From a virus: a stretch of 20,179 bases of DNA. Shown here in pieces: positions 685 through 11,305 of this stretch. The number at the start of each line of letters is the position of its first letter. The stretch's first letter is position 1. Made by a program: the position numbers and the translations under genes. The stretch is taken from IMG/VR virus record IMGVR_UViG_3300025141_001016, positions 1-20,179 of that record. One strand, given 5' to 3'. The notes under the pieces are model-generated. The model was not told the DNA's origin, did no database searches, and saw only the letters and a program-made list of their open reading frames with translations.

Positions 685-1611
685 ATGGCTAATACTTGGA
701 ACAGAACCGGCACCACCTGGAGCCAAGGTCTTTGGGGTCAGCAAGATAATAATGCAGTTGAACTTACTGGTTTATCAGTAACCTCTAGCTTAGGTACTCC
801 TGCAGTTGATTTATCAGTTGGATGGGGTAGAGCCGAATGGGGTGAAGAACCTTGGGGAGATAGTTATAGTCCCGTTATTACTTTAACTGGAGTTTCAGCA
901 ACAGTAAGTCTTGGAGAATTAACATACGCTCAAGCAACCGATGGTTGGGGACGTAATACATGGGGAGATAACAACTGGGGGGAAAATACTACAACAGCTG
1001 TTTTAACAGCTCCTGATGGACTAACAGCAGATCTTCCAAACGTAGGATGGGGATATCAAACATGGGGTGAAGATGGATATGGTGGAATTTTCTATTTAAA
1101 TCCTGCAGATGTTGTAGGGTTAACAGGAGTTTCAGCAACTGCTTCAGTACCAACTCAATTAGATATACCAGAACAAATTTCAGGTCTAGGTGCAACTTCT
1201 TCTATAGGTCAATTCAGTATTAATAATGGAGCAGATCATGTTCAAGGTTTAGCTTCTTTATCAGCAACTGCATCAAATGGAGATATTGGTCCTGCTGATG
1301 TAGTAGGAATAAGTGGAGTTTCAGCAACAGTTTCCGTTGGATCTGCAGAAGCAAATGATGCTCAAATAATAGATGTAAGCGGATTAAGTGCAACGGCTAG
1401 TGTAGGTGCTATTACTCCTACAGAAATGGCTGTAGGATTATCTGGTGTTTCAGCAACTGCAAGTACTGGTTCTATTTCTCCTACACAAATGACTATAGGA
1501 TTGACAGGATTATCTGCAACTGTTACACTGGGTCAAGTAGGGGGTCCAATAGCATGGAAAAAAGTAACTCCTACGCAAGGTGGTAGTTGGAGTAAAGTTT
1601 CACCACCATAA
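685..1611 (+). CDS. Repeat-rich tail/appendage protein (LTGxSATxSxG repeats)
   Basis: A 308-residue low-complexity protein built from two repeat types. An 11-residue unit of the form (L/I/V)(T/S)G(L/V)SAT(A/V)S(V/L)G appears nine times, at about residues 27, 67, 146, 166, 189, 209, 231, 252 and 273. A Trp-Gly motif (for example WGRAEWGEEPWGD) appears at about residues 47-58, 88-100 and 121-131, with a related WNRTGTTWSQGLWG at the N-terminus. The C-terminus ends in WKKVTPTQGGSWSKVSPP. Each repeat could form one beta strand or turn of a fibrous stack. The ribosome site is GGGAG at 671-675. Neighbours are structural genes, so a tail fibre, sheath-like decoration or adhesin is likely. No enzymatic motif is visible. 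Confidence 0.72.
   Translation: MANTWNRTGTTWSQGLWGQQDNNAVELTGLSVTSSLGTPAVDLSVGWGRAEWGEEPWGDSYSPVITLTGVSATVSLGELTYAQATDGWGRNTWGDNNWGENTTTAVLTAPDGLTADLPNVGWGYQTWGEDGYGGIFYLNPADVVGLTGVSATASVPTQLDIPEQISGLGATSSIGQFSINNGADHVQGLASLSATASNGDIGPADVVGISGVSATVSVGSAEANDAQIIDVSGLSATASVGAITPTEMAVGLSGVSATASTGSISPTQMTIGLTGLSATVTLGQVGGPIAWKKVTPTQGGSWSKVSPP
763..1533 (+). repeat. Nine degenerate copies of an 11-codon repeat
   Basis: This span of the appendage gene codes for nine copies of LTGLSATASVG-like units. Spacing is irregular: about 40 and 79 codons between the first copies, but about 20-22 codons between most of the later ones. The DNA copies differ more than the amino acids, so selection seems to hold the protein pattern rather than recent slippage creating it. 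Confidence 0.7.
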
Positions 1612-2816: not shown

Positions 2817-3323
2817 ATGGCTCACTTCGCTGAAATCAATAACACAGATAACGTAGTTGTTAGAGTAATCGTAATTGACAATGATGTAGTTGACGCTAAC
2901 GGCGGAGACTTATCAACGGAAGCTGAAAATTACTGTGCTAGTTTATTTCCCGAGAATCCAAATACTTATTGGAAACAAACTTCATACAACAATAACTTTA
3001 GAGCTAACTTGGCTGACTGCCAAGGCGGCGTTTACAGACCAGCTGAAGATGTTTTTGTTCCGGCAAAACCATCATTATATCCAAGCTGGGTTTTAGACAC
3101 TGACGTTTGGAGATATTTACCACCACTTGAATACCCGGGGTCATCGAGACCTAATGGTGCAAGTGAAGATGTATGGACTTGTATTTGGAATGAAGAATTA
3201 TGGAACAGTTCAGGAAACACGAACGGTTGGACAAGTATGTTGGCATCTGATATAAATAACCCAGATACAACTAGATATTATTTAGATCAAGCAACAATGA
3301 CATGGAGTCTTATAAATGACTAG
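2817..3323 (+). CDS. Putative tail appendage protein, 'MAHFAEI' family
   Basis: A 168-residue protein starting MAHFAEINNTDNVVVRVIVI. Proteins beginning MAHFAxI followed by a VVxVIVI strand, and containing 'WKQTSYNxNFR' (here residues about 52-62) and a 'PxPSWxLD' segment, are common beside tail-fibre genes of cyanophages and other marine phages. This match is strong by eye. The ribosome site AGGAGG (2800-2805) overlaps the stop codon of the previous gene. The last codons overlap the next gene by 8 bases (ATGACTAG), implying coupled translation with the glycine-rich protein and perhaps a shared structure. Four cysteines and many tryptophans are present. The biochemical role is not known. Confidence 0.7.
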   Translation: MAHFAEINNTDNVVVRVIVIDNDVVDANGGDLSTEAENYCASLFPENPNTYWKQTSYNNNFRANLADCQGGVYRPAEDVFVPAKPSLYPSWVLDTDVWRYLPPLEYPGSSRPNGASEDVWTCIWNEELWNSSGNTNGWTSMLASDINNPDTTRYYLDQATMTWSLIND

Positions 3324-4203
3324 TACTTTAGGATCAGACAACAATAACGGTGGAATTGTAGGACCAACAAACGATGCTCAAGCAGCATCTGATCAAGTAA
3401 CACAAATTACAGGAAGCGGAACTTATACACCTGTTGCCACAACTGGAAACGTTTTAGTTGTAGGTGGCGGCGGACCAGGCGGTCAAAACGGCGGCGGCGG
3501 AGGCGGCGGTGGCGGATCAATCTTCTACCCTGATTACCCTATGCCAGGTTCAGATTTAGCAGTTGTTATTGGAGGAACTGGAGCTGATACAGAATTTAAT
3601 GATGGAGCATCAGCAAGTTTAGAGCTTGTCGCAAAAGGTGGCGGCGGCGGAGGAACACAAGGTGGGGGCGGATCAGGCGGCTGCGGCGGTGGCGGCGGTC
3701 ACCAAGGTAACCCAAATAACTCACCTGGAGGATCTTCTACTCAAGTACCAAGTATGCCTAGTCCCTTACAACCATTTGGTTTTGGAAACGCAGGTGGAAC
3801 TTGGAACGGCCCACCATCAGGAGCAGGCGGTGGCGGCTCAGGCGGAGCAGCAACTAACCAAAATACAACAGGAGGAGCTGCTAAAAACTTTGGAGCTTCA
3901 CCATCAACTTCATCTGATTCTACATTTGCACCTTACGGCGAATCAGGATATTTTGCAGGCGGTGGCGGCGGTGCCAATGGAACTGCATCACCCGGAGCAG
4001 AAGGCGGAGCTGGAAACAGCAACCAAGCTGCAACGGCAAATACCGGTGGCGGCGGTGGCGGCGGCTTAACACCACCACAATCTGGAAAAGCTGGAGGATC
4101 CGGAGTGGTCCTTGTTCACGAAGTAGCAACAGCACAAGCAAACGGTGTTTGGAATATGCAAACTGCTTATAAATGGATAAAAGCTGCTTCTTGGCCTACG
4201 TAA
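3316..4203 (+). CDS. Glycine-rich tail fibre tip/adhesin-like protein
   Basis: A 295-residue protein with long polyglycine tracts at about residues 50-67, 108-128, 170-177, 214-219 and 244-250. It opens a glycine-rich domain with GSGTYTPVATTGNVLVVGGGG and closes it with GGSGVVLVHEV, the usual frame of phage 'glycine-rich domain' fibre proteins. Such tracts can pack as polyglycine II helices, as described for the T4-like gp38 fibre-tip adhesin. The C-terminus GVWNMQTAYKWIKAASWP is a tail-fibre ending common in marine phages. The start overlaps the stop of the previous gene by 8 bases. Glycine codons in the tracts are mostly GGC/GGA, making a local GC-rich island in an AT-rich genome. It likely contacts the host surface and is the last gene before the accessory cassette. 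Confidence 0.75.
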   Translation: MTSTLGSDNNNGGIVGPTNDAQAASDQVTQITGSGTYTPVATTGNVLVVGGGGPGGQNGGGGGGGGGSIFYPDYPMPGSDLAVVIGGTGADTEFNDGASASLELVAKGGGGGGTQGGGGSGGCGGGGGHQGNPNNSPGGSSTQVPSMPSPLQPFGFGNAGGTWNGPPSGAGGGGSGGAATNQNTTGGAAKNFGASPSTSSDSTFAPYGESGYFAGGGGGANGTASPGAEGGAGNSNQAATANTGGGGGGGLTPPQSGKAGGSGVVLVHEVATAQANGVWNMQTAYKWIKAASWPT

Positions 4204-4256: not shown

Positions 4257-4272
4257 ATGAAAGTATTAGGTA
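4257..4272 (+). repeat. 16-bp direct repeat, copy 1, at carbamoyltransferase start
   Basis: ATGAAAGTATTAGGTA here is identical to 5876-5891. Both copies begin exactly at a start codon and encode MKVLG. The two copies bracket the whole carbamoyltransferase coding region, 1619 bp apart. Confidence 0.85.
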
Positions 4273-5879
4273 TAAATCTTAGTCATAACGCATCAATCTC
4301 TGTTGTAGAAAACGGAGAACTTCTATTATCATTAGAACAAGAAAGAGTTTCAAAAAGAAAAAAAGACGATCAAATTGATATAGTATGTCAGGGTTTAAAG
4401 GACACTCATTTTGATATAATTGGATATACTTCCTATAATATGGTTAATGAAAACGTTGAGGGGTATACTCATTTAGTCAAAGCTTGTCTTACAAAATACA
4501 ATATAACTTGCGATAAATTAATGTCTTATGACGAACATCACTTAACACATTGCTATAGTTCATTTTATAATTCAGGTTTTGAAGAAGCCATTTGTTTAGT
4601 TATAGACAATGGGGGCACCAATTACACTATTGATAAAGTTGAGTTAGGAAAAGAAAACATTTCTATATATAAAATGTCTTACACTAAAGAACCCCACCTA
4701 TTATTTAAACTTTGTAGGGATTGGTCAGGGAGAGATATATCCGTTGGAGACTATCACACCTACAATTGTATGAGTCCAGCAGGTGTGTTTGAAATGTATA
4801 AAGAAGTATTAGGGTTTAAAGAACCTGGTTCTATTATGGGGTTAAGTTCTTATGGAAAACCTAATGTTGAAATACCTAAATTATATGATGAGTCTAATTT
4901 ATTTTGTAAATTAAATGTATGCTTTAATGATGTTATATTAAGAAGAAAAACTTTTCACCCTAAAGGTGTAGTTCCTGATGAAGATTTTGCTTATCGAATA
5001 CAGACAGACGCGACAGAAGTAGTTAAAAAATATATTCAATCAATTATTAAACAGTATAAAACTAATGTGTGTTTAAGTGGTGGATATTTTCAAAACTCTA
5101 TTGCTAACTATGAATTTTTAAAACTTAATAAAAACATTTTTGTAGACCCTGTTTGTCATGACGGAGGCACCTCTATAGGTTTAGCTCATTACTTAGATTT
5201 TAAATACGGTGGCCATAAACCAAAACCATATACTGATTTATATAAGGGTCCTGTTTATGAAAACATAGGAGAACTTTTAAATTCTTATAAAGTATCTAAG
5301 TCTCATGCCACTAAACAACAATATAATATTCTTGATTCTAATAACTTAAATGTTGCAAAGCTTTTACAAGCTAATAAATCTGTAGGAATATATCAGGGTC
5401 GATCTGAAATGGGACCTAGAGCATTAGGCAACAGGTCTATTTTATTTAATCCTAGTAATCCACAAGCAAAAGAAAAAATGAATCTTATAAAAAACAGAGA
5501 ATGGTTTAGGCCATATGCTGGAACTGTTTTATATGAACATACTAAAGACTGGTTTAATTTAGAGGGTAAAGATGAGACCCCCTTTATGTCTTACGTTGTA
5601 GGGGTAAGAAAAGATAAGTTAAAAGATATATCTGGAATATGCCACATAGATAATACATGTAGAATACAGACCCTTAAAGAAAAACAAAATAAAAATTTTT
5701 ATGATATAATAACCGAGTTTTATAGACTCACAAATGTTCCTATTGTTTTAAACACTTCCTTAAATACAGCTGGAAAACCTTTGGTTGAAACTGTTGAAGA
5801 CGCACTTAATCTTATGTTAACATCTAATTTAGACTATCTGTATTTCCCTGAATGTGGTAAACTATTGGAGAGCATATGA
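4257..5879 (+). CDS. NodU/TobZ-family O-carbamoyltransferase
   Basis: A 540-residue enzyme expected to transfer a carbamoyl group from carbamoyl phosphate, through a carbamoyl-adenylate, to a hydroxyl of an unknown acceptor. The N-terminal (Kae1/YrdC-like ATPase-fold) domain shows MKVLGINLSHNAS (1-13), EQER (27-30), the metal-site region DEHHLTHC (92-99), VIDNGG (115-120), MGLSSYGKP (194-202), LSGGYFQNS (273-281) and DGGTSIGLAH (302-311). The C-terminal domain shows YQGRSEMGPRALGNRSIL (379-396), REWFRPYAG (414-422) and VLNTSLNTAGKPLVET (497-512). Length and motif order match the family and all key motifs appear intact, so it is probably active. It heads a cassette and overlaps the next gene by ATGA. 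The acceptor cannot be read from the sequence: known family members act on Nod factors, antibiotics and other sugars. Confidence 0.93.
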   Translation: MKVLGINLSHNASISVVENGELLLSLEQERVSKRKKDDQIDIVCQGLKDTHFDIIGYTSYNMVNENVEGYTHLVKACLTKYNITCDKLMSYDEHHLTHCYSSFYNSGFEEAICLVIDNGGTNYTIDKVELGKENISIYKMSYTKEPHLLFKLCRDWSGRDISVGDYHTYNCMSPAGVFEMYKEVLGFKEPGSIMGLSSYGKPNVEIPKLYDESNLFCKLNVCFNDVILRRKTFHPKGVVPDEDFAYRIQTDATEVVKKYIQSIIKQYKTNVCLSGGYFQNSIANYEFLKLNKNIFVDPVCHDGGTSIGLAHYLDFKYGGHKPKPYTDLYKGPVYENIGELLNSYKVSKSHATKQQYNILDSNNLNVAKLLQANKSVGIYQGRSEMGPRALGNRSILFNPSNPQAKEKMNLIKNREWFRPYAGTVLYEHTKDWFNLEGKDETPFMSYVVGVRKDKLKDISGICHIDNTCRIQTLKEKQNKNFYDIITEFYRLTNVPIVLNTSLNTAGKPLVETVEDALNLMLTSNLDYLYFPECGKLLESI

Positions 5880-5891
5880 AAGTATTAGGTA
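5876..5891 (+). repeat. 16-bp direct repeat, copy 2, at first oxygenase start
   Basis: Identical to 4257-4272 (ATGAAAGTATTAGGTA). MKVLG is native to carbamoyltransferase N-termini but not an expected beginning for an oxygenase, so this copy probably derives from the upstream gene. Recombination between the copies would remove the carbamoyltransferase and leave an intact oxygenase gene. Confidence 0.85.
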
Positions 5892-6508
5892 ATCAAAAAG
5901 TAGAAAATAAAATTGTTGTAGTAGATAATTGGTATTCTGAGCAAGAATTAAAAGCTGTATGGAAAGAAATAGATTTTTATACAGAAAGTCAAGACTTAGA
6001 AAGAGCCACTCAAAATTTAACAGTAACGGGAACAGACAAACAAGGAAACTCACAAGCAGAATGTTTTAGAATATACTTTGATAATTTTTATCAACCAAAC
6101 AAAAGACATATGTCCCCTATACTTTCTTTACAGAAAAAATTTTTAGACCCAGAAGTACATCAAAAATTTAAAACTATTCCTATGGGTAGACAGTTTCCAG
6201 AGACAAATAGAGACACCTCGTTTATATCTTACTATGAAAACAAAGATCATTTTAAACCACATTTTGATGTGTTTCAATTTACAGTCCTTATTTGGTTATA
6301 TAAAGAACCTAAAAAATTTACCGGAGGAGATTTAATATTACATGATTTTAATAATGAAATGGTAGAACTTAAAAATAATAGGTTAATATTTTTTCCGTCT
6401 TATTATATTCATTCAGTAAATGAAATTAAAATGGAGACTGAAGAAAAACATATGGGACGATATTGTATTAGTCATTTTTTTTATACAGTGGATACAGGTA
6501 GAACATGA
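5876..6508 (+). CDS. 2OG-Fe(II) oxygenase 1, prolyl-hydroxylase-like
   Basis: A 210-residue 2-oxoglutarate and Fe(II)-dependent dioxygenase. The double-stranded beta-helix core is visible: YYENKDHFKPHFDVFQFT carries the iron-binding HxD (H129, D131), then WLYKEPKKFTGGDLIL, then FFPSYYIHSVNEI with the distal iron histidine H179. GRYCISHFF supplies R195, the likely 2-oxoglutarate C5-carboxylate binder. The full triad plus Arg suggests activity. The fold resembles prolyl 4-hydroxylase and other protein or small-molecule hydroxylases; the substrate is unknown. The start overlaps the carbamoyltransferase stop as ATGA, and its first 16 bases repeat that gene's start. The end overlaps the next gene by ATGA. 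There is no signal peptide, so it is cytoplasmic. Confidence 0.88.
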   Translation: MKVLGNQKVENKIVVVDNWYSEQELKAVWKEIDFYTESQDLERATQNLTVTGTDKQGNSQAECFRIYFDNFYQPNKRHMSPILSLQKKFLDPEVHQKFKTIPMGRQFPETNRDTSFISYYENKDHFKPHFDVFQFTVLIWLYKEPKKFTGGDLILHDFNNEMVELKNNRLIFFPSYYIHSVNEIKMETEEKHMGRYCISHFFYTVDTGRT

Positions 6509-7122
6509 TTTATAAAAATATGTATTGGTTGTTTAAGCAAGCTATACCAAGCGACGTCTGTGATAAAATAATAGAGCATGGAAAGAGCTTAGTAGATGAA
6601 ACAGCTAGGACTGGAAATTTTGAAGGGCCTTTAAATAAAGAGGCTCTAAAAATATTAAAGACAGAACAAAGAGATTCGAATGTAAGTTGGATTGGAGATA
6701 AATGGATATTTGATTATCTTACACCTCATATACAAACAGCCAATAAAAATGCTAATTGGAACTTTGACATACATTCAGCGGAACCAGTTCAATTTACAAA
6801 GTATAAATTAAATCAGTTTTATAATTGGCACTGTGATACCAGTGAAGAAGTAATTCATAGACCACAAGTTCCTCATGCGCATGGGAAAATTAGAAAACTT
6901 TCTTGTGTTGTTTTTTTATCAGATCCTAAAGATTATGTAGGTGGTCAATTTAAATTTGATTTTAGAAATAACAGGGTAGGGTGTAATATTATGGAAGTAA
7001 CAGAAAATCAAAAAGGTAACATAATTGTTTTTCCTTCTTATTGTTGGCACAAAGTTTTTCCAGTTACTAGTGGTGAAAGATATTCTTTAGTGGGATGGTA
7101 TTTAGGGGCTCCTTACAAATGA
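6505..7122 (+). CDS. 2OG-Fe(II) oxygenase 2, PKHD-like
   Basis: A 205-residue dioxygenase different from its neighbour. FYNWHCDTS gives the HxD iron motif (H109, D111). GKIRKLSCVVFLSDP followed by YVGGQFKF is the typical second strand pair of PKHD-type (YbiX/PiuC-like) hydroxylases. NIIVFPSYCWHKVFPV holds the distal H182, and GERYSLVGWYLG holds R192. The whole facial triad and the 2-oxoglutarate arginine are present. The ATGA start overlap (6505-6508) implies coupled translation with oxygenase 1. The gene after it begins inside its stop codon. PKHD-like relatives are mostly of unknown substrate; some are tied to iron metabolism. The substrate here is unknown. Confidence 0.88.
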   Translation: MIYKNMYWLFKQAIPSDVCDKIIEHGKSLVDETARTGNFEGPLNKEALKILKTEQRDSNVSWIGDKWIFDYLTPHIQTANKNANWNFDIHSAEPVQFTKYKLNQFYNWHCDTSEEVIHRPQVPHAHGKIRKLSCVVFLSDPKDYVGGQFKFDFRNNRVGCNIMEVTENQKGNIIVFPSYCWHKVFPVTSGERYSLVGWYLGAPYK

Positions 7123-7718
7123 ATCTTTTTACTTTACCTAACTCACCAATTCTTAAAGACACTGTTCCTAATGAATTATATGATTCTTTATTAAAAGAAG
7201 CTCATCAAAGCTTTAACCAAAAAACATCGGCCCATAACAAAAAATTAGTTGGCCATATAAAACACGAATATGTTTTAAAAGAAAATACGCGCGTGTTGAA
7301 TCCCTACATAAGACATCTAGCACAATATCTTTCTGCAAACTTAGACAAAGGAGATAAAAAAGGATACGGTGGTAATAACTATATACTAAAAGATCTTTGG
7401 GTTAACTTTCAAAAAAAACATGAGTTTAATCCAATACATGTTCATGATGGTATATTTAGTTTTGTTATTTTTATGACAGTCCCCTATGAATTAAACGATG
7501 AAATGAAAGTCTTTAATGCTAATGGTGACCATGCGTCTAGACTAGAGTTTGTATATTCTAACACATTGGGGCGAATAATACAGTATGTTTTAGACATAAA
7601 CAAGTCAGACGAAAAAAGCATTGTTATGTTTCCAGCGTCTTTAAACCACGTTGTTTATCCTTTTTATACCAGCGATGATTATAGAATAACAATATCAGGT
7701 AATGTTTATGGAGAATGA
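7119..7718 (+). CDS. 2OG-Fe(II) oxygenase 3, Oxy_5-type, with HxH motif
   Basis: The ATG at 7119, which overlaps the upstream stop as ATGA like the two genes before it, is preferred over an in-frame ATG at 7095. This gives 199 residues, MNLFTLPNSP onward. LWVNFQKKHEFNPIHVHDG (93-111) resembles the iron-site strand of the putative 2OG-Fe(II) oxygenase family (2OG-FeII_Oxy_5) found in cyanophages. The metal pair would be H107 and H109 (HxH) with D110 adjacent, rather than a standard HxD. SIVMFPASLNHVVYPF provides H177, and DYRITISGNV provides R189. The family match is good by eye. Catalytic competence is less certain because of the altered carboxylate position. It overlaps the next gene by 17 bases. 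Confidence 0.75.
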   Translation: MNLFTLPNSPILKDTVPNELYDSLLKEAHQSFNQKTSAHNKKLVGHIKHEYVLKENTRVLNPYIRHLAQYLSANLDKGDKKGYGGNNYILKDLWVNFQKKHEFNPIHVHDGIFSFVIFMTVPYELNDEMKVFNANGDHASRLEFVYSNTLGRIIQYVLDINKSDEKSIVMFPASLNHVVYPFYTSDDYRITISGNVYGE

Positions 7719-8367
7719 TTTTAAAAAAAATAAATATAAGATTATTAAAAATTTAATTAGTCCACAGCTGGCTAGTTTTTTATTTACTTATTTATTTATG
7801 AAAAGAAATGTTCAAATTACTATGGTTAAGGAAGGACTTATAGCACCTTTTTCAAATTACTTTGGAAGTTTTAAAGACCCTCAAGTTATGAATACTTATT
7901 CTCATTATGCAGACATTGCTATGGAAACTCTTTTATTTTTAATTAAACCAAAATTAGAAAAAATTATGGGTACATCATTAATTGAAACATACTCTTATTG
8001 TAGAATGTATAAAAATGGTGACATATTAAAACGACATAAAGATAGACCATCTTGTCAGCTGTCAGCGACTGTAAATTTAGGAGGGGACCCATGGCCTATA
8101 TTTGTAGAGCCAGATGAAACAAAAGGTGGAGATACAAATAAAGGATATGTTTCTGCAAATACTTCTGGAGTACGTGTTGATCTAGAACCGGGAGACGCCT
8201 TTCTTTATGAAGGATGTAAGTTAGAACATTGGAGAGAACCTTTTGAAGGTGAAGCGTGTGGACAAGTATTCTTACATTACAATAGTGATAATAATCAACA
8301 TAACTTATATGATGGAAGACCCCACTTAGGTTTACCATCGGAACTTAAAAAAAATGTTATATCCTAG
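7702..8367 (+). CDS. 2OG-Fe(II) oxygenase 4, prolyl-4-hydroxylase-like
   Basis: A 221-residue protein. The start at 7702 is one of two close ATGs (the other, at 7708, would remove two residues); both overlap the upstream gene. ETYSYCRMYKNGDILKRHKD carries HxD (H112, D114), followed by the strand CQLSATVNLG and WPIFVEP. LEPGDAFLYEGCKLEHWREP carries the distal H176. At the usual 2-oxoglutarate arginine position the sequence reads CGQVFLHY, with Gln188; I recall relatives in marine phages with the same glutamine, and R178 may substitute. It resembles cyanophage prolyl-4-hydroxylase-like proteins. The substrate is unknown. The gene ends in an A-rich stretch in which the next gene starts (14-base overlap). 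Confidence 0.8.
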   Translation: MFMENDFKKNKYKIIKNLISPQLASFLFTYLFMKRNVQITMVKEGLIAPFSNYFGSFKDPQVMNTYSHYADIAMETLLFLIKPKLEKIMGTSLIETYSYCRMYKNGDILKRHKDRPSCQLSATVNLGGDPWPIFVEPDETKGGDTNKGYVSANTSGVRVDLEPGDAFLYEGCKLEHWREPFEGEACGQVFLHYNSDNNQHNLYDGRPHLGLPSELKKNVIS

Positions 8368-9043
8368 TTTACAAGTACATAATGTTTTTAGACAACCAGA
8401 TCAGGTTGTAGAGTACGCTAAATCTTTAGAGTATAAACAAGATCCTGAGGGAAGGTGGCCGGGCAAAAGGTCTAAATTTGTACATGTTCTTAATTATGAT
8501 TTATTTAATATGGTGTGCAAAAGAACTTTGGCTGCTTTATATCCAATGAATTATCATCACATGAGATTTAAAGCTCATTCTCAATTTCAAACTATTCCTG
8601 CTGCACATGCCGGAGGTGAGGGATGGATTCACCAAGATATATACTCTCAGATTACTTGCATTATATATCTATCTCATCACACCAATTGTGGTACAAATTT
8701 ATATATACCAGAAAATGAAGTTATGAGACCTACTTTTGAAAAGAATGCGTCTGCATCTTTTGATGTTAATAAAATTAAAGAGACACACTACCTTCAAAAT
8801 AAACCTTTTGATGAAACGTATTATAAAGCATTAAAAATAAATAATTCTAATTTTATTAAAACAACTTCATTTAACTCAATATATAATAGTATGGTTGTTT
8901 TTGATGGACATACTCACCATAATGCCAATGGGTTTGTCGACCCTAATTGTCCTGGTGATAGGCTAACTTTAGTAACCTTTTTTGACGATATTACTTCAAG
9001 TGAAACCCTGAAATATTCAGGAAGTGAACTGTTGAAAATCTAA
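8354..9043 (+). CDS. 2OG-Fe(II) oxygenase 5, DUF6445-like
   Basis: A 229-residue protein beginning MLYPSLQVHNVFRQPDQVVEYA. The segment FQTIPAAHAGGEGWIHQDIY contains the HxD motif (H93, D95), followed by ITCIIYLS and a glycine that opens the next strand (CGTNLYIPE). NSMVVFDGHTHHNANGF holds the distal histidine, most likely H189. GDRLTLVTFF holds R203. This layout matches the DUF6445 group of putative 2OG-Fe(II) oxygenases; the call rests on motif layout only. It closes the cassette and overlaps the previous gene by 14 bases. It is followed by a 57-bp gap before the next virion gene. No substrate can be inferred, though the histidine-rich active-site loop (HTHH) is notable. Confidence 0.72.
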   Translation: MLYPSLQVHNVFRQPDQVVEYAKSLEYKQDPEGRWPGKRSKFVHVLNYDLFNMVCKRTLAALYPMNYHHMRFKAHSQFQTIPAAHAGGEGWIHQDIYSQITCIIYLSHHTNCGTNLYIPENEVMRPTFEKNASASFDVNKIKETHYLQNKPFDETYYKALKINNSNFIKTTSFNSIYNSMVVFDGHTHHNANGFVDPNCPGDRLTLVTFFDDITSSETLKYSGSELLKI

Positions 9044-9100: not shown

Positions 9101-11305
9101 ATGCTACAAAAAATAGGTTTTTTACCAGGATTCAATAAACAGATTACCCCAACAGGAGCTGAGGCTCAATGGACAGGAGGGGAAAATGTACGTTTTAGAT
9201 ATGGTACTCCTGAAAAAATAGGTGGTTGGAAATCCTTAGGAGACAAAAAATTAACTGGTGCTACTAGAGCCATTCATCATATGGTAAACAAAGATGGTAT
9301 TAAATATTCCATCATAGGAACCAATAGAATTTTATACGCATACTCAGGTAGTGTCTTCTATGACATCCATCCTTTAGTTAATCCATCAGGAACCGCTATT
9401 ACAAGTGCTTTTACTACTACTAATGGGGATACAACTGTTACACTAACTTTTTCTTCTTCTCATGGCTTTGTAGCAGGTGATATAATTTTATTTGGAGATT
9501 CTTCTACATTTAGTTCTATTACTGACTCTGTTTTTAATGCTACTACTTTCTGTGACAAAAAATTTATGGTGTTATCGGTACCTACTGGTGATACTCTTAC
9601 TATTAATGCCGGAGCTACTGAAACTGATTCAGGAGCCACTACTTCTGGAGGCATAACTTATTATAGATATTACCACGTAGGTCCAGCTGACCAGGTGGGA
9701 GTATTTGGGTGGGGTATATCTCAATTTGGTGGTACGGTAACTAATCCACAAACAACAACTTTAAACGGAGCATTAAATGCTGACTCTGCTGGAACCGGAG
9801 GAACAGGAACTTCTATTAGTTTAACTAGCACTGTAGGATTTCCAACCACAGGTACAAATTATATTCAAGTAGACAGTGAAGAAATTTCTTACACTGGAGT
9901 TTCTGGAAATGACTTAACAGGAATTACTAGAAATGTTAGAGGAACAACTAATGCCTCTCACAGTAATGGAGCAACAGTTACCAATACAAGTGACTATGCT
10001 GCCTGGGGTCAAGCAGCGGCGTCAACTGATAAAGTTGCTGAACCTGGTTTGTGGTCTTTAGATAATTTAGGATCTACTTTAGTAGCTTTAATTTTTAATG
10101 GAGCTGTGTTTGAATGGGATGCAGATCCAGTTAATGCAACCAATATAAGAGCAACCATTGTATCTGGAGCGCCAACAGCTTCCAGGGATATGATTGTATC
10201 AACACCCGATCGTCACTTAGTTTTATTTGGAACTGAAACAACAATTGGAGACACATCTACACAAGATGATATGTTTATAAGATTCTCTTCTCAGGAGGAT
10301 ATCAACACTTGGACACCTACTGCACTCAATACAGCGGGTACACAAAGACTGGCTGCCGGATCACGGATCATAGGAGCTAGGCTTGGTAGAAATACTATTT
10401 ACGTATGGACAGATACCTCATTATTTACCATGCGTTTTGTAGGTCAACCGTTTACTTTCGCTTATGAGCAAGTAGGTACCAACTGTGGTTTAATTGGAAA
10501 AAATGCAGCCGTTGAGGTTGATGGTGCAGCCTACTGGATGTCTGAAAATGGTTTCTTTAGATTTACGGGTAAACTAGAATCCTTAGACTGTTTAGTAGAA
10601 GACTATGTTTATGATGATCTTAATAAAACTTCTAATCAAATGATTTATTGTGGATTAAATAACTTGTTTGGAGAAGTAATATGGTTTTATCCAACCTCTG
10701 ATTCTAATGTTAATAATAGATGTGTAGTATACAGCTATTTAGATTCTACTATTAACAGACCTATTTGGTATACCAATGCTAATTCTTTATTTCCACGTAC
10801 TGCTTGGATTGACTCAGCAATATTTGGTTTGCCTCATGCAACTTATTATGATGCTGATACTGATTCGTCTTTTGATGTGACAGGTAATACCGATGGTGTT
10901 ACATATTATTATGAACATGAAACAGGAGTTAATCAAGTTAAAATTGGGACAACGAGTGCAATACCTGCTAATATATTATCTGGAGATTTTGATATTACAC
11001 AAGATCAAAGACAAGGGATTACTTTTAGAGGAGACGGAGAATATGTAATGAGAGTTAGTAGATTTTTACCAGACTTTATAACTCAAGCAGGGAATACAGT
11101 TGTTACATTAAACCTTAGAGATTTTCCAAATGACACAGCAGCTAGTTCAACATTAGGACCATTTACCGTTACATCTTCTACTCAATATAAATCTTGTAGA
11201 GCTAGAGGTAGAGCTGTTGCCGTTAAGATAGCAAATACAGCTGTAGATTCTAACTGGAAATTAGGAACTTTTAGATTAGATGTACACGCAGGAGGAAGAA
11301 GATAA
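9101..11305 (+). CDS. Putative tail nozzle/hub protein, large beta-propeller-like
   Basis: A 734-residue virion protein. The start MLQKIGFLPGFNKQIT, followed by GGENVRFRYGTPEKIGGW (26-43), is a hallmark of a protein widespread in marine phages and is comparable to P22 gp10/SU10 nozzle-type tail proteins. Repeated strand patterns at residues about 50-95 and 310-600 (for example IYVWTDTSLFTMRF, GAAYWMSENGFFRFTG) suggest a beta-propeller. Residues about 235-295 form an inserted small domain with YIQVDSEEISYTGVSG and GITRNVRGT, a motif common in tail proteins. The C-terminus RARGRAVAVKI...WKLGTFRLDVHAGGRR is also typical. The ribosome site is AGGG at 9091-9094. It probably closes the channel at the tail end. 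Nozzle identity is inferred; structural identity is firm. Confidence 0.75.
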   Translation: MLQKIGFLPGFNKQITPTGAEAQWTGGENVRFRYGTPEKIGGWKSLGDKKLTGATRAIHHMVNKDGIKYSIIGTNRILYAYSGSVFYDIHPLVNPSGTAITSAFTTTNGDTTVTLTFSSSHGFVAGDIILFGDSSTFSSITDSVFNATTFCDKKFMVLSVPTGDTLTINAGATETDSGATTSGGITYYRYYHVGPADQVGVFGWGISQFGGTVTNPQTTTLNGALNADSAGTGGTGTSISLTSTVGFPTTGTNYIQVDSEEISYTGVSGNDLTGITRNVRGTTNASHSNGATVTNTSDYAAWGQAAASTDKVAEPGLWSLDNLGSTLVALIFNGAVFEWDADPVNATNIRATIVSGAPTASRDMIVSTPDRHLVLFGTETTIGDTSTQDDMFIRFSSQEDINTWTPTALNTAGTQRLAAGSRIIGARLGRNTIYVWTDTSLFTMRFVGQPFTFAYEQVGTNCGLIGKNAAVEVDGAAYWMSENGFFRFTGKLESLDCLVEDYVYDDLNKTSNQMIYCGLNNLFGEVIWFYPTSDSNVNNRCVVYSYLDSTINRPIWYTNANSLFPRTAWIDSAIFGLPHATYYDADTDSSFDVTGNTDGVTYYYEHETGVNQVKIGTTSAIPANILSGDFDITQDQRQGITFRGDGEYVMRVSRFLPDFITQAGNTVVTLNLRDFPNDTAASSTLGPFTVTSSTQYKSCRARGRAVAVKIANTAVDSNWKLGTFRLDVHAGGRR

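Follow-up and report, generated by a model that had tools for sequence, protein, structure and literature searches.

The window considered here is the whole stretch of DNA that was analysed, 20,179 bases from a virus (positions 1 to 20,179 of IMG/VR virus record IMGVR_UViG_3300025141_001016), with the PolA, primase, helicase and capsid genes falling outside this 20-kb record. At 4257–9043 it contains a cassette of six genes on the + strand, set off from the adjoining genes by 53 and 57 bases and lying in a slot between a glycine-rich gene (PF21722) and a gene for a nozzle-type virion protein (phrog_3287). Both the positions and the setting agree with a previous reading of the same letters (hereafter the sequence-only reading), which had described one O-carbamoyltransferase (CbT) and five 2-oxoglutarate (2OG)-Fe(II) oxygenases (Ox1–Ox5). 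The six genes, with the expect values of their profile matches, are as follows:

4257..5879, + strand: CbT, NodU/TobZ-type O-carbamoyltransferase of 540 amino acids (PF16861, 2e-58; PF02543, 1e-16; phrog_1601, 2e-128)
5876..6508, + strand: Ox1, PF13640-type 2OG-Fe(II) oxygenase with HFD...H...R (PF13640, 4e-9; phrog_61, 4e-18)
6505..7122, + strand: Ox2, PKHD/PiuC-like 2OG-Fe(II) oxygenase with HCD...H...R (PF13640, 1e-15; phrog_61, 3e-39)
7119..7718, + strand: Ox3, PF13759-type putative 2OG-Fe(II) oxygenase with HxH...H...R (PF13759, 2e-9; phrog_81, 3e-26)
7702..8367, + strand: Ox4, predicted 2OG-Fe(II) oxygenase fold with HKD...H (phrog_2954, 1e-49; predicted structure)
8354..9043, + strand: Ox5, DUF6445, predicted 2OG-Fe(II) oxygenase fold with HQD...H...R (PF20043, 2e-8; phrog_1644, 2e-26; predicted structure)

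Carbam_trans_N (PF02543) and Carbam_trans_C (PF16861) are both past their cut-offs in the single chain of CbT, and the match to phrog_1601 spans its whole length. The closest solved relatives in the Protein Data Bank (PDB) are NovN (3e-48), GdmN (4e-45) and TobZ (1e-30), and in the alignment with NovN the His-rich metal motif HHLTH and the nucleotide-site motif GRSEMGPRALGNRSIL (type GRSEMGPRALGNRSI) line up. The Pfam domains, the phrog_1601 match and the aligned motifs bear out the NodU/TobZ type proposed from the sequence, and indicate that the window carbamoyltransferase is no pyrimidine-synthesis enzyme; NodU itself is ruled out, as CbT reaches 128 bits on the NodU equivalog model, where 1000 are required, and CbT is a member of the family only. 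The established targets of NodU, TobZ, NovN and GdmN are sugars or natural products, and these substrates speak for the strongest alternative to the interpretation developed below, namely that the cassette acts on an envelope glycan of the host or on some diffusible small molecule, for example in receptor masking or phage exclusion, with CbT carbamoylating a sugar or natural product. We consider this alternative unlikely on the evidence given in the following paragraphs.

The cassette genes are tightly packed. Ox3 most likely starts at 7119 rather than at 7095, the start of the longest open reading frame, because its orthologues begin there, giving a 4-base ATGA overlap; with this start, 4-base ATGA overlaps are present at CbT/Ox1, Ox1/Ox2 and Ox2/Ox3, and the overlaps are 17 bases at Ox3/Ox4 and 14 bases at Ox4/Ox5. 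Ox1–Ox5 are spread over four PHROG families, with a best BLAST E-value of 6e-4 between any two, and by this comparison they are distinct genes and no recent tandem copies. The G+C content of the cassette is low (0.30 versus 0.38), and a recent transfer was rejected as its cause: because G+C at third codon positions (GC3) matches that of the flanks, the dip is attributed to the amino-acid composition of the proteins. Between the window and diverged orthologues, dN/dS for the six genes is 0.14–0.34 by the Nei–Gojobori method (NG86), or 0.11–0.36 when comparisons between relatives are included, values that are rough as dS (∼0.9–1.6) is close to saturation. By these estimates the six genes are under purifying selection, and the relaxation that the sequence-only reading had proposed to look for is not seen.

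Ox1, Ox2 and Ox3 exceed the cut-offs of the Pfam 2OG-FeII_Oxy_3/_5 families, and Ox2 also matches PKHD-type hydroxylases in the PDB (8e-9). The iron and 2OG residues (HxD...H and Arg) are kept in 6/6 sequences of Ox1, and those of Ox2 in 78/78. Ox3 fails the HxD/E...H iron triad, yet exceeds the PF13759 cut-off and is filed as a putative oxygenase; HxH replaces HxD/E in 77 of the 78 members of its family (window 7119–7718 and 77 slot relatives), and its chemistry and iron ligands are uncertain because HxH leaves out the usual carboxylate ligand. For Ox4 there is no Pfam match, ferrochelatase included. A Pseudomonas prolyl-4-hydroxylase (E 1.6e-8) heads the PDB matches of its AlphaFold2 (AF2) model (predicted local distance difference test, pLDDT, 86; predicted template modelling score, pTM, 0.84), the first 50 of which are nearly all 2OG oxygenases and include no ferrochelatase. 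H112, D114 and H176 of Ox4 are kept in 60/60 sequences; no basic residue stands near +10 of the distal His, R178 (+2) and R101 are conserved, and one of the two may take the place of the usual 2OG Arg. The AF2 model of Ox5 (pLDDT 86, pTM 0.85) matches EvdO2 (1.1e-6), GriE, SnoN and proline hydroxylases, and H93, D95, H189 and R203 are invariant in a 25-sequence alignment. Profile–profile comparisons of Ox5 with Ox1/Ox2 and of Ox4 with Ox2, made with shallow profiles, are not significant. The predicted structures support 2OG-oxygenase folds for Ox4 and Ox5, and the active sites of Ox1, Ox2, Ox4 and Ox5 are intact across diverged relatives. The claim of five 2OG-Fe(II) oxygenases is therefore upheld by Pfam for Ox1–Ox3 and by fold for Ox4 and Ox5, and fails for Ox3 in the HxD layout. 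The resemblance of Ox5 to the natural-product oxygenases EvdO2, GriE and SnoN favours a small-molecule target, although likeness of fold tells little on substrate.

The existing labels of phrog_2954 (Ox4, ‘ferrochelatase’) and phrog_1644 (Ox5, ‘minor coat protein’) appear wrong, because the predicted structures match 2OG oxygenases and the Ox5 active-site residues are invariant. The former, carried by the family in 156 phage records, is rejected on the absence of a ferrochelatase from both the best 50 PDB matches and the Pfam results. Ox4 homologues in bacterial genome collections lie mostly on phage contigs, and the family is apparently not strictly viral because single-gene copies with housekeeping neighbours occur on two Rickettsiales contigs from metagenome-assembled genomes (MAGs) that look chromosomal (L268:8004–8714, 53%; L285:6277–6834, 32%). 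A Porticoccaceae MAG contig with phage structural genes (L284:7197–15343) holds Ox2-, Ox4- and Ox5-like genes together with two tryptophan halogenases.

Comparison with other genomes, a check suggested by the sequence-only reading, reveals the cassette as a conserved unit. In 13 other contigs (L007–L013, L113–L116, L119 and L120), window-type CbT precedes Ox1, either directly or with a halogenase in between. Judged by their identity to the window these contigs make up four groups or more and, as near-identical viruses are included, are not 13 independent cases; two further contigs (L112 and L124) begin after CbT. Ox5 is missing in some of these relatives, and a tryptophan halogenase lies between CbT and Ox1 in L008, L009 and L119 and before Ox1 in the start-cut L112. 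The overlapping gene order is retained in diverged cassettes, and the six genes very probably constitute a functional unit. The L008 halogenase, positioned between CbT and Ox1, matches VirX1 (PDB 6qgm) at 1.7e-111; the window has no counterpart, and we know of no native substrate for VirX1.

The slot was surveyed in 57 contigs with both borders, which were collected via nozzle, CbT and Ox1 searches and do not represent population frequencies. They hold 0–9 oxygenases each, with at least one in 55 and nine in a row in two, so that five in a row, previously taken as unusual, is not so in this virus group. CbT is present in 12 of these slots, a tryptophan halogenase in 11, a sulfotransferase in 6 and a glycine-rich gene in 50; the halogenase shows no association with CbT or Ox1 across slots. 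Two contigs that are probably one virus lineage (L018:7400–8766 and L019:1093–2256) have a single open frame comprising a sulfotransferase domain, with its P-loop SGFPRAGNT, and an aspartyl/asparaginyl beta-hydroxylase domain, a predicted fusion that would put hydroxylation and hydroxyl-capping in one chain. The earlier proposal that hydroxyls are made and then capped thus finds indirect support, as several CbT lineages and sulfotransferases recur in an oxygenase-rich slot and one such fusion exists. The highly variable gene content of the slot may instead be read as a hot spot of unrelated accessory genes for host metabolism (2OG draining, nitrogen signalling, repair or antibiotic chemistry) with no joint pathway, and such roles have been proposed for cyanophage oxygenases, carbamoyltransferase and halogenase (PMC3037559; PMC9964418; PMC9146016). 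This appears improbable: the slot is strongly skewed to oxygenases and hydroxyl-capping or halogenating enzymes rather than mixed accessory genes, diverged cassettes keep their gene order, the sulfotransferase–hydroxylase fusion unites both steps, and several distinct oxygenase families would be needless for draining 2OG.

The neighbouring genes named in the analysis are:

2817..3323, + strand: small phrog_7759 protein, upstream of the glycine-rich gene (phrog_7759, 7e-29)
3316..4203, + strand: Gly_rich_2 glycine-rich protein, presumed tail-tip protein or adhesin (PF21722, 9e-13)
9101..11305, + strand: nozzle/stabilisation-type virion protein, which borders the slot on its downstream side (phrog_3287, 6e-94; 47% to 023Pt_psg01)

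Between the window and L014, identity is 88% for the nozzle and 98% for gene 231–671, and L014 has neither the cassette nor a glycine-rich gene of the window type; the nozzles of the window and L008 are only 55% identical, whereas their cassettes are 53–74% identical and accompany the same glycine-rich gene. Because L014 shares the nozzle without the cassette and L008 shares the cassette with a diverged nozzle, cassette and glycine-rich gene are exchanged without regard to the nozzle. That the cassette is exchanged together with a structural-type gene argues against a glycan target. The window-type glycine-rich gene is found in 9/12 slots with CbT and 0/45 without, a raw association that is confounded by kinship; among independent pairs on the nozzle tree, the gene goes with CbT 4:0 (4/4 informative, p 0.125, not significant). 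The window-type glycine-rich protein has the invariant non-glycine stretches YPxYPMPGS and TQVPSMPxPxQPFG, which suggest themselves as sites at which to seek modification, and it is a candidate substrate. The small phrog_7759 protein, with homologues in L002, L003, L005, L006 and L094 and, by match to the same family, in S-CAM8, may be a second substrate or a tip component. It carries the motifs WKQTSYNNNFR and YPSWVLD, and its homologues are located near oxygenase genes in podoviruses, HTVC008M, HTVC033P, S-CAM8 and the freshwater phage DSL-LC04. A further virion-region protein (window 685–1611; longer copy at L011:3065–4615) contains Trp/Gly repeats of the form GWGRxxWGxxxWG and is a possible substrate of the tryptophan halogenases at the slot of relatives.

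The nozzle protein is closest to that of phage 023Pt_psg01 (47%), then to those of Pelagibacter phages HTVC027P and HTVC023P, and the virion genes flanking or inside the region follow the same order in the window and in HTVC023P-type relatives. Judged by nozzle and late virion gene order, the window virus is an HTVC023P-type (SAR11-type) podovirus. Contigs of the same layout with Ox4 are present in Pelagibacteraceae single-cell assemblies (e.g. L269 and L272), and SAR11 is the likely host because of these contigs and because the nozzle relatives are pelagiphages. A promoter scan gave 26 hits with 27 expected by chance, and Rfam and tRNA searches gave no match.

On the maximum-likelihood CbT tree, whose long branches make exact placements uncertain, the slot CbTs fall in several places, and a single slot-CbT clade is rejected by approximately unbiased (AU) tests (p-AU 0.0036 with 21 rows and 5e-5 with 26 rows). 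These tests reject one CbT acquisition at the slot, and because the slot CbTs are polyphyletic, oxygenase-rich slots acquired carbamoyltransferases on repeated occasions. In L132 and L133, an Ox1-like gene and a halogenase occur with a looser match to the window's glycine-rich gene and with a CbT from a different lineage, the joining of which with the window clade is rejected (p 6e-4). The 21-row tree groups the CbTs of the T4-like cyanophages S-CAM8, P-RSM4, S-SSM5 and S-MS29 with that of the window, with weak support.

The characterised phage CbT product is 5-carbamoyloxymethylcytosine (PMC8670742). The enzyme, a 5-hydroxymethylcytosine (5hmC) carbamoyltransferase (eLife 2021), is of the same family as window CbT, phage-encoded and active on a hydroxyl, although it is tied to thymidylate synthase and DNA modification, whereas window CbT is tied to oxygenases and tail genes. 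Its existence raises the prospect that a hydroxymethyl base, formed by a cassette oxygenase or by a hydroxymethylase elsewhere, is carbamoylated by CbT, and this is favoured by the thymidylate synthase adjoining some cyanophage CbTs and by thymidine-hypermodification genes near PolA in some HTVC023P-type phages (PMC9599517). Several observations render DNA modification highly improbable here. In the eLife data, CbT and thymidylate synthase occur on one contig only in modified contigs, and the window genes include no thymidylate synthase or hydroxymethylase; within the 20-kb record and its cassette relatives, neither thymidylate synthase nor dCMP hydroxymethylase was found beside CbT. Ox1–Ox5 have no TET/JBP match, the slot is late and virion-linked, and window CbT is unsplit, unlike the cyanophage CbTs linked to thymidylate synthase, which are divided over two genes. 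Such split CbTs, with the C-terminal part first, are those at L099:5986–7604, L106:6971–10550 and L097:9923–11391, which adjoin a thymidylate-synthase-like gene in S-RIM44 and S-SCSM1 and, judging from position, in AG-345-D19.

That pelagiphages and cyanophages carry multiple oxygenases is already known (PMC3037559; PMC9599517; PMC9964418), with 24 2OG-Fe(II) oxygenases in S-SCSM1 (PMC9964418). In HTVC023P-type pelagiphages, the same virus group as the window, several non-orthologous oxygenases are near a ‘ferrochelatase’ (Ox4 family) partner; the account of Wittmers et al. 2022 (PMC9599517) differs from ours in that the oxygenases are nearby rather than adjacent and the ‘ferrochelatase’ label is accepted, and its main text mentions neither carbamoyltransferase nor halogenase. 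The view that carbamoyltransferase and oxygenases occur singly in marine phages does not hold, as in the T4-like cyanophages S-CAM8, P-RSM4, S-SSM5 and S-MS29 a CbT sits between tail-fibre genes and an oxygenase-family cluster, including Ox2-like and Ox4-like members. These clusters resemble that of the window in this linkage and differ in that the CbT is on the strand opposite to the array and ∼37% identical, the oxygenase set is another and the backbone is that of a myovirus; they are annotated gene by gene, with no treatment as a unit in accessible papers. In Pelagibacter phage HTVC008M, the tail-fibre genes are followed by a row of five oxygenase-family genes that includes Ox4-like and Ox2-like members. 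Unlike in the window, this row is without CbT, and the HTVC008M CbT is 70 kb off in a glycan cluster. The CbTs of HTVC008M, S-CAM1, S-SCSM2R and Bellamy within sugar-nucleotide/glycosyltransferase clusters favour a glycan target, whereas glycosyltransferase and sugar-nucleotide genes are absent from the window and none was found at the slot of cassette-bearing contigs. In the searchable literature, from which most subscription papers and preprints are excluded, we found no report of CbT, halogenase or sulfotransferase linkage with fibre-adjacent oxygenase arrays, and no paper on phage tail modification by such enzymes.

The virion target favoured by the sequence-only reading is strengthened by these comparisons, since both podoviruses and T4-like phages have fibre or tail genes next to such enzymes. 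Tailoring of the tail tip is preferred because this neighbourhood is common to both phage types and to SAR11 and cyanobacterial hosts, whereas DNA or sugar metabolism is not. The six genes are one exchangeable late cassette, and in such a scheme Ox1–Ox5 would, during virion assembly, use O2, 2OG and Fe(II) to hydroxylate residues on tail-tip proteins encoded nearby, with the glycine-rich protein 3316–4203 as the likeliest target, and CbT would use carbamoyl phosphate and ATP to place a carbamate on one of the hydroxyls so made. Where other viruses carry a halogenase or sulfotransferase, that enzyme would supplement or replace the carbamoylation step, and the outcome would be a receptor-binding tip of varied chemistry that is exchanged as a set of protein plus enzymes. 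We give an even chance to a swappable tail-tip modification cassette of this kind; that the hydroxyl used by CbT stems from a cassette oxygenase is a finely balanced proposition, and the case for a virion protein as the target stands midway between doubt and acceptance.

Several points weigh against tail-tip tailoring. The role of the glycine-rich protein as an adhesin or tail tip is presumed, its PDB comparison yielding weak low-complexity matches and no meaningful relative, and the 4:0 contrast with CbT falls short of significance. Ox3 is without the usual carboxylate ligand, the single Rickettsiales copies show that the Ox4 family is workable without phage tail proteins, and other marine phage CbTs sit in glycan or nucleotide contexts. 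Finally, the linkage of the slot to fibres could reflect a hot spot of gene uptake.

The purpose of marine phage 2OG-Fe(II) oxygenases has been open since at least 2010, with DNA repair and nitrogen signalling among the guesses, and the linkage described here offers a concrete and testable answer, in which oxygenases and capping enzymes tailor tail-tip proteins. More generally, and tentatively, marine phages may build tailored adhesins through multi-enzyme hydroxylation, carbamoylation, halogenation or sulfation akin to that of ribosomally synthesised and post-translationally modified peptides (RiPPs), with the enzyme set travelling with the tip and chemistry, not sequence alone, setting receptor specificity. 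If true, receptor binding of very abundant ocean viruses would rest on enzymatic chemistry that is invisible to sequence-based host prediction.

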